Made by a program: the position numbers and the translations under genes
Part shown: positions 1-5,404 of the stretch, piece by piece
How positions within the stretch are numbered: the first letter of the stretch is position 1
How the letters are laid out: the number at the start of each line of letters is the position of its first letter
Source: Flavobacteriales bacterium
GTDB taxonomy: Bacteria; Bacteroidota; Bacteroidia; Flavobacteriales_F; PHOS-HE28
Reading direction: 5' to 3'
Assembly: GCA_019638085.1 (NCBI GenBank)
Contig: JAHBUL010000013.1
Location: forward strand, 1-64,000
Length of the DNA: 64,000 nt
The notes under the pieces: generated by a model
Databases searched by the model: none
The model's input: only the letters and a program-made list of their open reading frames with translations
What the model was told of the DNA's origin: nothing

Positions 1-124
1 GCACCTATAAGAAATTGGCGGTTCAGTGGTTAAATGAAGTTCAGTTTTTCAATCAAACTTTTGTGCTGGTTGACAGTTTTGTGCTTCGAAATCGCCAACT
101 TCTTATAGCTGCAACACGTTGTGG
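1..124 (+). repeat. attC-like palindromic site 1 (left edge)
   Basis: An imperfect palindrome whose outer arms are CTATAAGAAATTGGCGGTT (5-23) and its near-complement at 90-108. Inside lies a 24-nt block at 68-91 that recurs with two mismatches at 1865-1888. It ends in ACGTTGTG (116-123). Long stem, conserved inner block and a terminal GTT box resemble an integron attC site. The family name is inference; the palindrome and the shared block are seen directly. The left end may be cut by the window edge. Confidence 0.5.
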
Positions 125-821
125 AAATACAAAGTCAATTCAACCAGGCGACAGAATTTTTTTACTCAAAGTTGGGACAGAACCAAAAGGTATTATTGCA
201 GCAGGATTTTCGACCTCGACACCATTTTACGAAAAACATTGGAGTGGAGAAAATAAAGACACATTATACATTGACGTTGACTTTGAAGTCTTACTCAATC
301 CAGACCAAGAACCAATCTTAACAGTTGACATATTAAAAACTGGAAATTTAGCTCAACAAAATTGGCGACCTATGGCTTCTGGAATTTCCGTTAGACCTGA
401 ACTTGTTGACGAACTTGAAGCTGTTTGGTTTGACTTTTTGACAACTCAAAAAATTAGACACAACCCTTTTATTCCGACAGACAATAACTCTCAAAAGACT
501 TACACCGAATGAACACCAAATCAAATTTCAGTAACAAAATATGAACGAAATCCTTTCGCAAGAAAAAAGTGTTTAGAGCATTTCGGTTACGCTTGTGTCG
601 TTTTCGACTTCAATTTTGAGAAAACATACGGACAAATAGGAAAAGGTTTTATTCACGTTCATCATTTGACACAAGTTACAACTGTTGGACAGACTTATGA
701 AATTGACCCAATAAAGGATTTACGACCTGTTTGCCCAAACTGTCATTCAATAATTCACCGACAAAAAACACCTTTGACAATAGATGAAGTAAGAATATTA
801 ATTAACGAAAATGCAGACTGA
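15..821 (+). pseudogene. EVE-domain/HNH endonuclease gene, broken
   Basis: The first part reads as an EVE-type module (CGNTKSIQPGDRIFLL and following), as in EVE-HNH proteins thought to act against modified DNA. A TGA at 510-512 stops the frame. The same frame then runs on from 513 to a stop at 819-821 and encodes an HNH nuclease with VHHL, DLRPVCPNCH and IIHR motifs. The first zinc-binding CxxC of this family appears here as CVVF, so the second Cys is lost. The start of the EVE domain is missing: the reading frame enters it straight from the attC-like palindrome. Base composition is AT-rich, unlike the rest of the window. In-frame stop, lost Cys and missing N-terminus point to a decayed, acquired gene. 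Stop-codon readthrough is possible but less likely. Confidence 0.7.
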
Positions 822-837
822 AAACAGAACACCAGCC

Positions 838-1794
838 CATAATCGAGTAGGCGGCCCCGCCGCAAAATAGCGACCGGGTGCGCCTCTCACACCACTGTAC
901 GTACGGGCCTCGTATACAGCGGTTCGTTGAGATGTGGAGCGACTTTCCGGTAGTGATCGAGCAAGGCTTCGTAGCCGCGTTTCGCCAGACGGGACAAGGT
1001 GATCGTGGTGCTTAGGATGGGACTTTGGGCGATGGCCCAGCCACCTTTGCGCGTGCGGCTCCAAGCATAGGCATGGTGCTGGTCTACACCCAAGCGGATC
1101 AGGTTCTTCCGTTTCCGTTCGGGCTTCTTCCAGTCCTTCCAGATGCAGTACCGCAGCCGATTGCGCACCCAGCCATCCACATCGCGCAGTTTGCCGGTCA
1201 TACTTGCCAAGCGGAAGTAGTTCAACCAGCCGCGTTGCACGGTCTTCAGGCGGGTAATGCGCTCGGCCAGCGGTAGCGGAGCCGTTTTGCGCGTAATGGC
1301 TTTCACCTTCCGCTTATCACTGGGCTTCCCCGCCTTACGGAGGGCGATCCCAGCGGCATTTGGAACACCTCAACGTTCGGTCCTTCATGGGCTTGTGAGA
1401 CCTCCGCCTTTATCCTTGCGGTGACGGCTCGTATCCACCCACTACTACGACCTCTGCTGACCTCTCCACTACGCCACACGTGGCCATGGAGATCTCCCCG
1501 GGTAAGGGTCATATCCTTCGGTCCATCCCCGCCGCATCTACCGCTCTGGGTTTGTTGCCTGCGGGCTTTGCTGTGCTGTGCCAGCTTACCCACCCAATGC
1601 GGCCTCGGTATGCGGTTCCTGTTCGTCGGTACGGACCTTTGCAGTCGCGCTTCCTTCAGTGCAGGGGTCGCCCCCTACCACCTTGCGCCTTGCTGACCGG
1701 CTTCGACAACTCGCCGGTAAGGGACTTGCACCCTCTGGATATTCAAAGAACGATGCTACCTTGCAGTAGACTTCTTGACCCATGCTGGGCACAC
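838..1794 (-). mobile_element. Group II intron, internally deleted
   Basis: Read on the minus strand, the element opens at 1794 with GTGTGCCCAGCATGGG, which fits the GUGYG 5' end of group II introns, and carries the domain I-like string GGGTGCAAGTCCC further on. Near the other end, 923-891 folds as a domain V hairpin: nine outer base pairs, a two-base CG bulge and a short inner stem. It is followed by a domain VI-like stem and CTACTCGAT. At about 955 bp the element is far shorter than a full intron of roughly 2 kb or more, because the reverse-transcriptase part of its protein is absent. The 3' boundary near 838-842 is approximate. The intron class was not assigned. Confidence 0.75.
887..1306 (-). 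pseudogene. Group II intron maturase, C-terminal remnant
   Basis: About 139 residues match the C-terminal maturase (GIIM) region of intron-encoded proteins: GWLNYFRLASMTGKLRDVD, then WVRNRLRYCIWKDWKKP, ending EPLYTRPVRTVV. No reverse-transcriptase blocks, including the YxDD site, are found upstream in any frame before the intron 5' end, so the protein lost its N-terminal two thirds. The stop codon lies next to domain V, as is usual for compact bacterial introns. The remnant could not drive retromobility. The RNA might still splice with a maturase supplied in trans, but the sequence does not show this. Confidence 0.8.
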
Positions 1795-1799
1795 ACACG

Positions 1800-1921
1800 G
1801 GTTTTGCGTCAGGCGGGTTGACGTGCAAACTTGAAGCTTTGTGCTTCTATTCAAGTGTAGTGCAGGTTGACAGCTTTGTGCTCCGAAACCCGCCCGAACG
1901 CAAAGCCCGAAAACGTTGAAC
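1800..1921 (+). repeat. attC-like palindromic site 2
   Basis: This site has the same plan and orientation as the one at the left edge but different outer arms: TTTTGCGTCAGGCGGGTT (1802-1819) pairs with 1887-1905. The inner block 1865-1888 is nearly identical to 68-91. It ends with GTTGAAC (1915-1921), an exact match to the integron core GTTRRRY. Conserved inner sequence with divergent but still complementary arms is what attC sites show. The group II intron lies just outside it. Confidence 0.5.
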
Positions 1922-1954
1922 GCTATTCCGCGAAAGCACGGAACAGCGTTCAAC
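1915..1954. repeat. Inverted repeat
   Basis: GTTGAACGCT (1915-1924) is perfectly complementary to AGCGTTCAAC (1945-1954), and TTCCG pairs with CGGAA inside. It overlaps the last bases of attC-like site 2. No T-run follows on either strand, so a terminator role is uncertain. The remainder of 1955-2017 shows nothing recognisable. Confidence 0.6.
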
Positions 1955-2017
1955 TAGGAAATGACCACCCTATACAAGGAACTCGCGCAGTCCCAACGCC
2001 CGATACCTAGGATTTGA

Positions 2018-2461
2018 TCAACGTCCCCACTCCGCCCAACTCGTAGCGGTCTCTTGCAGGCGCACCGCATAGAGCGCCTCCTTTTCCGGTAAGGCGTTCT
2101 GCAAGCGCTCTACAATATCCAATAGCACATTTTCGCAACTGGGCTGCCACGGCGTAAAGCGCGTCCGGCCGAACAGTTCATGGCCCGAAGAGGCTTGGTC
2201 ACGATCACTTTCGTGCAGCACCAGCGCATGATCGTAATGGTCCACCACGCTCTTGTTCACCAGCTTCTTCAGCTCGGAGAAGTCGATCACCATCCCGTTC
2301 TTCGGATGGTTCTCTTCCTGCCGTGGACGGCCGATCAGGGTAACGTCCAATATGTAGGAATGCCCATGGATGCGTGCGCAGAGGCCATCATGGCATCGGA
2401 GCGCGTGGGCCATTTCGAAGTGGAACCGCTTGGTGACGCGAACAGGTTGGTTGAAGCTCAT
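2018..2461 (-). CDS. queD: 6-pyruvoyl/6-carboxy-tetrahydropterin synthase family (QueD-like)
   Basis: A 147-residue protein of the PTPS/QueD fold, the usual size of the family. It has the zinc-site histidines in FEMAHAL and RIHGHSY, a Cys after the first His, and a conserved DFSELK segment. QueD makes 6-carboxy-5,6,7,8-tetrahydropterin from dihydroneopterin triphosphate for queuosine; true PTPS enzymes make tetrahydrobiopterin precursors, and the sequence alone does not separate them. Its ATG overlaps the stop of the upstream tryptophanase gene (ATGA at 2461-2458), so the two are probably translationally coupled. No other queuosine gene is nearby, so the role here stays open. Confidence 0.8.
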   Translation of the reverse strand: MSFNQPVRVTKRFHFEMAHALRCHDGLCARIHGHSYILDVTLIGRPRQEENHPKNGMVIDFSELKKLVNKSVVDHYDHALVLHESDRDQASSGHELFGRTRFTPWQPSCENVLLDIVERLQNALPEKEALYAVRLQETATSWAEWGR

Positions 2462-3834
2462 GGCAACGTTTCGAAGTGTGCGGTAAAGTGACGCAGGAAT
2501 TTCGGTTCCTTCACGATCCGCATTCCTTTCACGCCTTCGCGCTCCTTCATGATGCCTTCAAAGGTCTCGGCCACGTACTCGATGTGGCTCTGCGTATACA
2601 CTCGCCGGGGGATGGCCAAGCGTACCAGTTCCATACGCGAAGGGTTCAGCGAACCGTCCTCGGCATAGGTGCCGAACATCACCGATCCGATCTCCACACT
2701 GCGGATGCCGCCCAAGCGGAACAGCTCACTCACCAAGGCCTGGCCGGGGTACTGGGAGGGCGGTATGTGCGGGTAGAGCTTCTTCGCATCGATGTATACC
2801 GCGTGGCCGCCGATGGGGAGCATGAGCGGCACGCCCAGCTTGTGCAGCTGTTCACCCAGGAAGGTCGTGCTCCGGATGCGGTAGTTCAGGTAGTGTGGAT
2901 CGAAGACCTCCTCCAGGCCGATGGCGATGGCTTCCATATCGCGCCCGGCCAATCCGCCGTAGGTGGTGAATCCCTCGGTGATGATGAGCAGGTTGATGCA
3001 GGCCTCGGCCAGCGCTTCGTCGCGGAAGGAAAGAAAGCCCCCGATGTTGGCGAAGGCATCCTTTTTGGCGCTCATCACGGCACCATCAGCCAAGGCGAAC
3101 ATGCGCTGTGCGATCTCGCGATAGGTGAAGCCTTCCATCCCTTCCTCGCGGTGTTTCACGAACCAGCTGTTCTCCGCGATGCGGCAGCAATCCAGCATCA
3201 GGATCACGCCGTGGCGCTTGCAGATGGCGGAGACGCCTTCGGCATTGGCCATGCTCACCGGTTGCCCACCGCCACTGTTGTTGGTCACGGTAAGGATCAC
3301 CGCGCCAATGTGCCCTTTGTGCTCCTTCAGCAGGCGGTCCAGTTCACCCACATCCATATTGCCTTTGAAGGGATGTTGCAGCGCGGTATCCTGCCCTTCA
3401 ACGATGGGGATGTCGATCGCCGTGGCGCCGCTGAATTCGATATTGGCCCGCGTGGTATCGAAGTGGGTGTTGCTGATGAAGACCTTGCCCGGCCCACCGA
3501 GGTGCCCATAGATGATCCGTTCCGCCGCTCGCCCTTGATGGGTGGGTAGTATGTGCTGCATCCCGGTAAGGTCCTGCACTTCATTTTCCATCCGCATCCA
3601 GGAGCGGGAACCCGCATAGGCCTCATCTCCTTCCATGATGCCGGCCCATTGGTGGGCGCTCATGGCACTGGTGCCACTGTCGGTCATCAGGTCGATGATC
3701 ACATCCCGCGAGCGCAGCAGGAACGGATTGTAATGTGCTTCCTTCAGCAGCTTCACCCGTTCGGTTTCGGTACTGAGGCCGATGGGTTCCACGCTCTTGA
3801 TGCGGAAGGGTTCGATGATGGTTCTGTGTTGCAT
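2458..3834 (-). CDS. tnaA: Tryptophanase
   Basis: A 458-residue PLP-dependent beta-eliminating lyase that splits L-tryptophan into indole, pyruvate and ammonia. The PLP lysine lies in MSAKKDA. Two positions known to separate tryptophanase from tyrosine phenol-lyase read as tryptophanase: Asp in HFDTTR (Asp137 in E. coli) and VEIGS, where phenol-lyases carry MERG. The end (EPKFLRHFTAHFE) is typical. The stop overlaps the start of the QueD-like gene. A second, related lyase lies upstream on the same strand with about 190 bp between. No TnaC-like leader peptide is evident upstream. Confidence 0.9.
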   Translation of the reverse strand: MQHRTIIEPFRIKSVEPIGLSTETERVKLLKEAHYNPFLLRSRDVIIDLMTDSGTSAMSAHQWAGIMEGDEAYAGSRSWMRMENEVQDLTGMQHILPTHQGRAAERIIYGHLGGPGKVFISNTHFDTTRANIEFSGATAIDIPIVEGQDTALQHPFKGNMDVGELDRLLKEHKGHIGAVILTVTNNSGGGQPVSMANAEGVSAICKRHGVILMLDCCRIAENSWFVKHREEGMEGFTYREIAQRMFALADGAVMSAKKDAFANIGGFLSFRDEALAEACINLLIITEGFTTYGGLAGRDMEAIAIGLEEVFDPHYLNYRIRSTTFLGEQLHKLGVPLMLPIGGHAVYIDAKKLYPHIPPSQYPGQALVSELFRLGGIRSVEIGSVMFGTYAEDGSLNPSRMELVRLAIPRRVYTQSHIEYVAETFEGIMKEREGVKGMRIVKEPKFLRHFTAHFETLP

Positions 3835-4021
3835 TTTTTGAGTGTCGGGGATCTGTCTGGATCAGACGATCAGAAAATCAGATGATTCCGCCGAAGCTTT
3901 AGCGAAGGAGGATGATCGGAAAATGAAATGCCATTGCCGCGACGTGCATTCGATGACGGTGCTTTCGCAACACGCTCTACCCTTGGCGTTCCGGCGGTAG
4001 AGCCCGGTGTGATGGGGCGTT
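3835..4021. other. Spacer between the two lyases
   Basis: About 190 bp without a gene. It holds short purine-rich strings but no clear -7 element, operator or terminator. Confidence 0.5.
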
Positions 4022-5404
4022 TCACAGCTTCTCGAACTTGGCTTGGAAGAAGCGCAGGTACTTCGGCTCATAGGTCATGCGTAGCCCCTTGATCCCGTTG
4101 CGCCTTTCATATACCCGTTGGACGCTTTCCGCCACCACGTCCATGTGCGCTTGGGTGTATGCGCGACGCGGTATGGTAAGGCGGACGAGCTCCAACTTCG
4201 GCAGGTAATTTTCACCCGTATCCTTATTGCGTCCCGCACTTACGATGCCGCGTTCCATGGCGCGGACACCCGCATCCAAGTACAACTCCGCCGACAAGGC
4301 CTGGGCCGGGAATGCGACCTGTGGCACGTGGGGCAGGAAGGCCTTCGCATCCAGGAAAACACCGTGTGTGCCGATCGGCTTCACCATCGGGATGCCCGCG
4401 TCCAGCAGCTTCTGCCCGAGATAGAACACTTGCCCCACCCGCGCGCGGATGTGGTCCTCATCCACCGATTCCGAGATGCCGATCGCCATGGCCTCCATGT
4501 CGCGCCCGGCCAATCCGCCGTAGGTGTGCAGGCCCTCGAAGATCACCACTTGGTTGCGCGCCTCCTCGAAAATATCCCATTCGTTCAGCGCCAGGAAACC
4601 GCCGATGTTCACCAGCGCATCCTTCTTCGCGCTCATGGTGGCGCCATCGGTGAGCGAGCAGAGCTCCTTCACGATGTCAGCCGTGGACCGCTGTTCCTGA
4701 CCTTTCTCCAAGAGTTTGATCATGTACGCGTTCTCGGCAACGCGCGTCATGTCGTGGATGATGCGGATCTTGTGCTTCGCCGTGAGCGCACGTAGGTCCT
4801 TCATGTTCTGCAGGGAAATGGGTTGGCCACCCGCCATGTTCACCGTGGTGGCGATGGAGACGTAGGGGATCTTCGCGGCGCCGTGCTCCTTGATCACCGC
4901 TTCCAGCTTCTTCAGGTCCACGTTGCCCTTGAACGGGAAGGTATTGTTGGGATCATGCGCCTCGTCCACGATGATGTCAATGAAGGTACCACCTGCCATT
5001 TCCTGGTGCAGCCTCGTGGTGGTGAAGTACATGTTGCCGGGCACTACGTCGCCGGGCTTGATCAGGATCCGCGAGATCAGGTTCTCCGCCCCGCGTCCTT
5101 GGTGCGTGGGGATCACATGCTTGTAGCCGTAGTACTTCTGGATGGCCGCTTCAAGGTTATAGAAGTTGCGACTGCCCGCGTAGGCCTCGTCGCCGAGCAT
5201 CATGCCCGCCCACTGGCGATCGCTCATGGCGCTGGTACCACTGTCGGTGAGCAGGTCGATGTAAACGTCCTCGGACTTCAGCAGGAACGTGTTGTAACCG
5301 GCTTCCTCCAAGGCCTTCTCGCGGTGTTCGCGCGTGGTCATGAAGAGCGGTTCGATCATCTTGATCTTGTAGGGCTCGGCCCAGGAAATACGCGGTTCGG
5401 TCAT
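4022..5404 (-). CDS. tpl: Tyrosine phenol-lyase
   Basis: A 460-residue PLP enzyme expected to convert L-tyrosine into phenol, pyruvate and ammonia; known enzymes have about 456 residues. The PLP lysine is in MSAKKDA. The two substrate-deciding residues are those of phenol-lyases: Thr in MYFTTTRLHQ (Thr124) and Arg in MERGIVSAGR (Arg381). The start MTEPRISW is chosen because 28 further upstream codons have no family resemblance. A -7-like CACTTTTG lies at 5469-5462 and an inverted repeat at 5494-5512. Together with the neighbouring tryptophanase it suggests fermentation or scavenging of aromatic amino acids with release of indole and phenol. Confidence 0.9.
   Translation of the reverse strand: MTEPRISWAEPYKIKMIEPLFMTTREHREKALEEAGYNTFLLKSEDVYIDLLTDSGTSAMSDRQWAGMMLGDEAYAGSRNFYNLEAAIQKYYGYKHVIPTHQGRGAENLISRILIKPGDVVPGNMYFTTTRLHQEMAGGTFIDIIVDEAHDPNNTFPFKGNVDLKKLEAVIKEHGAAKIPYVSIATTVNMAGGQPISLQNMKDLRALTAKHKIRIIHDMTRVAENAYMIKLLEKGQEQRSTADIVKELCSLTDGATMSAKKDALVNIGGFLALNEWDIFEEARNQVVIFEGLHTYGGLAGRDMEAMAIGISESVDEDHIRARVGQVFYLGQKLLDAGIPMVKPIGTHGVFLDAKAFLPHVPQVAFPAQALSAELYLDAGVRAMERGIVSAGRNKDTGENYLPKLELVRLTIPRRAYTQAHMDVVAESVQRVYERRNGIKGLRMTYEPKYLRFFQAKFEKL

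Follow-up and report, generated by a model that had tools for sequence, protein, structure and literature searches.

The window analyzed here, i.e., the first 64,000 nucleotides of contig C5 from a Flavobacteriales genome (G000), opens with an attC site (P1), followed by a truncated HNH cassette, a second attC site (P2) that bears an intron, an array-end hairpin, and the chromosomal queD gene (Table 1). An earlier note, made from the letters of this stretch, had pointed to two same-strand palindromes with a common 24-nt block. These are indeed present: the block is found at 68–91 and 1865–1888 on the same strand with two differences, and zero matches are expected in shuffled sequence. The reading of both palindromes as attC sites is borne out by R1, a covariance model built from 49 related sites. 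P2 folds better than its shuffles on either strand (z −2.9 and −3.4) and ends, as the earlier note had it, with GTTGAAC (1915–1921), which is its R' box and fits the integron core GTTRRRY. The R' box of P1 reads GTTGTGG (118–124). Base 1 of the window is also base 1 of the contig, so that the R'' box at the 5' end of P1 is cut off.

Table 1. Features at the start of the window.
Feature	Position	Strand	Basis
attC site P1	1–124	+	R1 match 1–125, model positions 9–133, 110.6 bits, E 6.8e-25; arms 1–23/90–112
Gene cassette, intron-disrupted	119–1915 (after G118|TT to G1915)	+	attC boundaries and boundary letters
HNH endonuclease remnant	121–818	+	open in frame 3, one TGA at 510–512
First part of P2 R'' box (GCCCATA)	835–841	+	comparison with other copies
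Group II intron, 953 nt	842–1794	−	RF02001 at 1507–1677; GIIM domain 890–1306; ends by comparison with copies
attC site P2	1795–1921	+	R1 match 1790–1922, 137.1 bits, E 1.7e-31
Array-end element	1910–1990	+	hairpin GTTGAACGC...GCGTTCAAC (1915–1954) plus conserved stretch
queD-like gene (6-pyruvoyl tetrahydropterin synthase)	2018–2461	−	PF01242

The AT-rich gene expected between the two palindromes is present, but merely as the remnant of an HNH endonuclease gene—no start codon lies near the cassette start in frame 3, and an internal TGA interrupts the frame. The cassette starts with GTTGTGG, which does not match its own R'' box (GCCCATAAC); because of this mismatch, the 5' part of the cassette has probably been lost. 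A cassette with an HNH-like gene also follows an attC site on another contig of the genome (C36, 192640–193391), which stops just before the R'' of this cassette.

The group II intron lies between the palindromes as well, yet not merely beside P2: it is located inside the R'' box of this site and splits GCCCATA from the remaining ACA (1795–1797). The insertion point is TGT|T on the bottom strand of the box, and the intron runs opposite to the cassettes. The reverse-transcriptase region is lost, and only the maturase domain is left of the encoded protein. The junctions, TGT|GTGTGCCC and CGAT|T followed by what remains of an R'' box, recur in other intron copies of the genus. Group IIC-attC introns are known to insert in the bottom-strand R'' of attC at TTGT/T, opposite to the cassettes (PMC7923331), and the window intron and several other copies are placed in just this way. 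The insertion in the R'' box of P2 supports the suspicion that the intron is of an attC-targeting kind. Besides the TGT|T target and the orientation, the ends GTGTG...AT are shared with this intron class, whereas the targets here are Bacteroidota-type attC sites, and the window copy has lost most of its reverse transcriptase. Rfam at gathering thresholds gives the intron as its sole match.

Directly 3' of attC sites, the hairpin that follows P2 (1915–1954) recurs in the genus of the window, and the array-end element closes the array in two relatives (G023 and G033). Beyond it, the queD region represents ordinary chromosome, which is kept in relatives without a hairpin at this place. The hairpin as a native queD terminator was considered and rejected: it is absent from relatives that share the queD neighborhood and have no array there. 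Very probably, positions 1–1990 form the distal end part of a chromosomal integron, and integrons of this type are widespread in Bacteroidota. Further into the window, the minus strand of 2458–5404 holds a tandem of two genes for tryptophanase-like beta-eliminating lyases, with stretches that are 74–78% alike.

Species-level genomes were scanned with an exact 18-base piece of the 24-nt block as seed, which gave more than 119 matching stretches, nearly all from Bacteroidota and relatives and often at contig ends. The aligned sites open with RYYYAAC (R'') and close with GTTRRRY (R'), and compensatory changes occur in 14 of 14 consensus pairs. The 49-site alignment bears all that characterizes the attC site of an integron—R'', R', and a conserved hairpin. 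The covariance search proposed in the earlier note yields four sites in the genome of the window and is positive for 44 of 58 relatives. The outcome which that note had named as speaking against its integron-like cassette array—no further copies—is not what was found, because attC copies occur in the genome and in many relatives; the array reading stands. Across the phylum, R1 sites are present in 144 of 297 genomes—a sample under strict filters with many metagenome-derived assemblies, searched with a model that leans to one attC subtype because the first sites were found via the exact 18-base block. Other attC types are present in the genome of the window besides this subtype. Cassettes carry their attC site, about 120–133 nt long, at the 3' end. 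They often start alike after the R' box (GGCAATnnTAnGACGACA, e.g., GTTAGCGGCAATGGTAGGACGAAAC in L059), and this common start might serve as a promoter or as a signal for translation. A P1-type attC site is also present on a contig that is classified as viral (IMGVR_UViG_3300001533_000607).

As the earlier note had stated, no integrase is visible in the window. The genome, however, encodes three short integrases, on C14, C32, and C10, none of which is IntI and each of which comes with an attI site and the start of a first cassette. Several contig ends fall precisely on the R'' letters TAACA: the sequences of C14, C10, and C36 stop right before these letters, and those of C5 and C19 start right behind them. 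In the relative G033, a single integron lies between the genes of C32 and those of C19; these contigs are therefore two sides of one integron. C5 is probably the distal end of another one, with its integrase on either C14 or C10. Alternatively, the piece in the window could be a dead relic—an attC cluster of an old integron, disconnected from any integrase of the genome. The truncated cassette gene with its stop, the mismatch between cassette start and R'', and the intron without its reverse-transcriptase region would all fit a relic, as would the ambiguity of the integrase contig that joins C5: the neighbors of C14 are not found beside queD in any relative examined. We consider this rather improbable, since the contigs meet at TAACA as if the assembly broke the arrays at attC, and since C32 and C19 do belong to one integron in G033.

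In about 18 genomes, a short integrase lies on the upstream (attI) side of the array. Fourteen of these are SSA2, Pelobium, Cecembia, Epilithonimonas, Moheibacter, and nine more; within the genus of the window, this arrangement is seen in G023, G033, G037, and G002. The array integrase is a tyrosine recombinase, whose best NCBIfam match is XerA (NF040815; 233 bits, cut-off 220) with IntI in second place. The IntI profile TIGR02249 matches the array integrases below its cut-off and leaves profile positions of about 180–238 unmatched. The spacing from GKGxKDR to HxLRH amounts to 65–66 residues in the array integrases versus 107 in ten IntI and 69–73 in Xer; the array integrases do not carry the IntI-specific extra domain by which the integrase of an integron is recognized. 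In a tree that contains no XerA reference, array integrases and IntI group together, apart from XerC/XerD (100/100); the array integrases might form one clade beside IntI. Most array integrases bear an extra 70–140 N-terminal residues before the SAM-like domain. This extension matches DUF5710 weakly (E 3e-5, below cut-off), and the N-terminal domain might help to bind branched or single-stranded DNA.

An attI site follows 33–135 bp after the integrase stop codon in most arrays. It reads ATATAAACRAG|TT in many of them and ACAACCGACTAG|TT in two integrons of the genome of the window, and in most genomes examined the first cassette after it matches its own R'' over nine letters. The position of the short integrase strongly suggests that it is the enzyme that moves the cassettes. 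The competing explanation would be that ordinary attC sites are moved in trans by true IntI, the short integrase being an unrelated XerA-like recombinase. True IntI does exist in 84 of the 297 phylum genomes, some of which also have R1 sites, and four genomes outside the class of the window (G373, G096, G087, and G118) combine such arrays with a true IntI elsewhere in the genome; moreover, IntI is defined by the very domain that is missing here (PMC9024848). Yet, no IntI above the NCBIfam cut-off was detected in the genome of the window or in ten array-rich genomes, nor any true IntI among the 54 site-bearing genomes listed in the class of the window, and it is the short integrase that sits at the attI end of the arrays examined—action of IntI in trans is hence unlikely.

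The cassettes themselves provide the strongest result of the analysis. An integron predicts that the R'' box pairs with the starting R' letters of its own cassette and not with those of the adjoining cassette. The array of Bacteroidota bacterium SSA2 (CP058707.1, one contig) offers at least 341 sites, with 341 of 341 on one strand, spread over 3475209–3982499 at a median site spacing of 852 bp; an insertion lies between its integrase and the first detected site. Here, R'' and own cassette match in five of five letters for 88% of 305 cassettes, versus 6.6% with the adjoining cassette and 4.6% after shuffling (maximum 7.9%). In 14 further array genomes, all 79 sites share one orientation, and the full match with the own cassette is found in 72% of their 57 cassettes versus 6.9% shuffled. 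Such a match is the mark that integron cassettes bear when crossover takes place at G|TT; one orientation and R''/R' complementarity within the own cassette are what integrons display. That the palindromes are a REP- or MITE-like repeat family or terminators without cassette function, whose hairpins the intron merely uses, is scarcely credible and contradicted by this test: IIC introns also insert after terminators (PMC7923331) and a terminator-like hairpin adjoins P2, but own-cassette complementarity, one-strand arrays, and attI have no reason in a repeat family, and the arrays hold distinct single genes, the longest frame running in the direction of attC in 192 of 213 cassettes. In a sample, the cassette proteins include restriction, DRT-type, and other defense-like families.

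Known integrons suggest how such a system might work. The bottom strand of attC would fold into a hairpin, a tyrosine recombinase would cut the R' box between G and TT and free the cassettes as circles, and these would go back in at attI. The recombinase would here be a relative of IntI that lacks the IntI-specific insertion and in most cases has an additional N-terminal domain, and from the same analogy we infer that it acts on folded single strands. In the genus of the window, arrays terminate in the conserved hairpin, and the group II intron would have targeted the folded bottom strand of P2. We favor the view that Bacteroidota probably have an integron lineage of their own. Its integrase would recombine folded attC sites although the IntI-specific domain held necessary for this is missing, perhaps by means of the N-terminal domain instead. 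The lineage would account for the largest known cassette arrays and would have handed resistance genes such as tet(X3) and blaVEB on to Gammaproteobacteria.

With sedentary chromosomal integrons of the Vibrio type, these systems share hairpin attC sites with an R''/R' core, arrays in one orientation, an attI that adjoins the integrase, and hundreds of cassettes with mostly unknown or defense-like genes. In contrast to these, the Bacteroidota integrase lacks the IntI-specific insertion and mostly has the N-terminal extension, most integrase genes point toward attI and array, and attC shows strong sequence conservation in its inner part. The largest array seen in this analysis also stands apart in size, with 341 sites, 507 kb, and 11.9% of the chromosome; known integrons reach up to 301 cassettes and up to 3% of the genome (PMC11023631). 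Taken alone, the window would count as a CALIN, unlike which it has integrases (not IntI) and attI on other contigs of its genome and adjoining the arrays of relatives. XerA-type recombinases (NF040815) are the best profile match of the array integrase, which nevertheless has an array and an attI as partner and groups with IntI, not with XerC/XerD. From Bacteroidetes, IntegronFinder 2.0 names a single complete integron, that of Salinibacter (PMC9024848). A search of the open-access literature gave no account of short-integrase integrons in Bacteroidota, which by its scope does not prove that they are new.

Traces of these integrons are also found beside resistance genes. On an Acinetobacter plasmid (NZ_CP041297.1; L219:5028–7222), an integrase remnant of 55% identity lies 190 bp before tet(X3) and an R1-type site (E 3e-8) just after it; from this arrangement, tet(X3) looks like a captured Bacteroidota cassette. 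What has been called 'xerD' at this place is hence a gene for a truncated member of the short Bacteroidota integrase family. On a Klebsiella plasmid (CP006657.1; L220:4001–4875), a 44% identical remnant directly precedes blaVEB-3, with an attI-like GAG|TTAGCGG junction between the two. R1 sites also lie in the midst of resistance genes on plasmids of Myroides, Empedobacter, and Riemerella. In Myroides p63039 and Empedobacter pSE1-3-20kb, such genes (blaOXA, blaMYO-1, aadS; arr, lnu(H), tet(36)) stand in cassette-like rows, several of them separated by an R1 site. In the genome of the window, the first cassette after attI on C32 (L208:1386–2189, minus strand) codes for a dihydropteroate synthase. 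Its Sul3 score (352 bits, below cut-off) exceeds the one reached with the general family model (258 bits), which makes this a Sul-like cassette in an environmental Bacteroidota integron.

Integron surveys recognize integrons by an IntI with the extra domain. If roughly every second genome of the phylum bears attC arrays of the present kind, a large pool of mobile genes has been missed. If our reading is true, folded single strands could recombine without the domain that is regarded as defining this reaction, and both a source and a mechanism would be at hand for the 'xerD' next to tet(X3).
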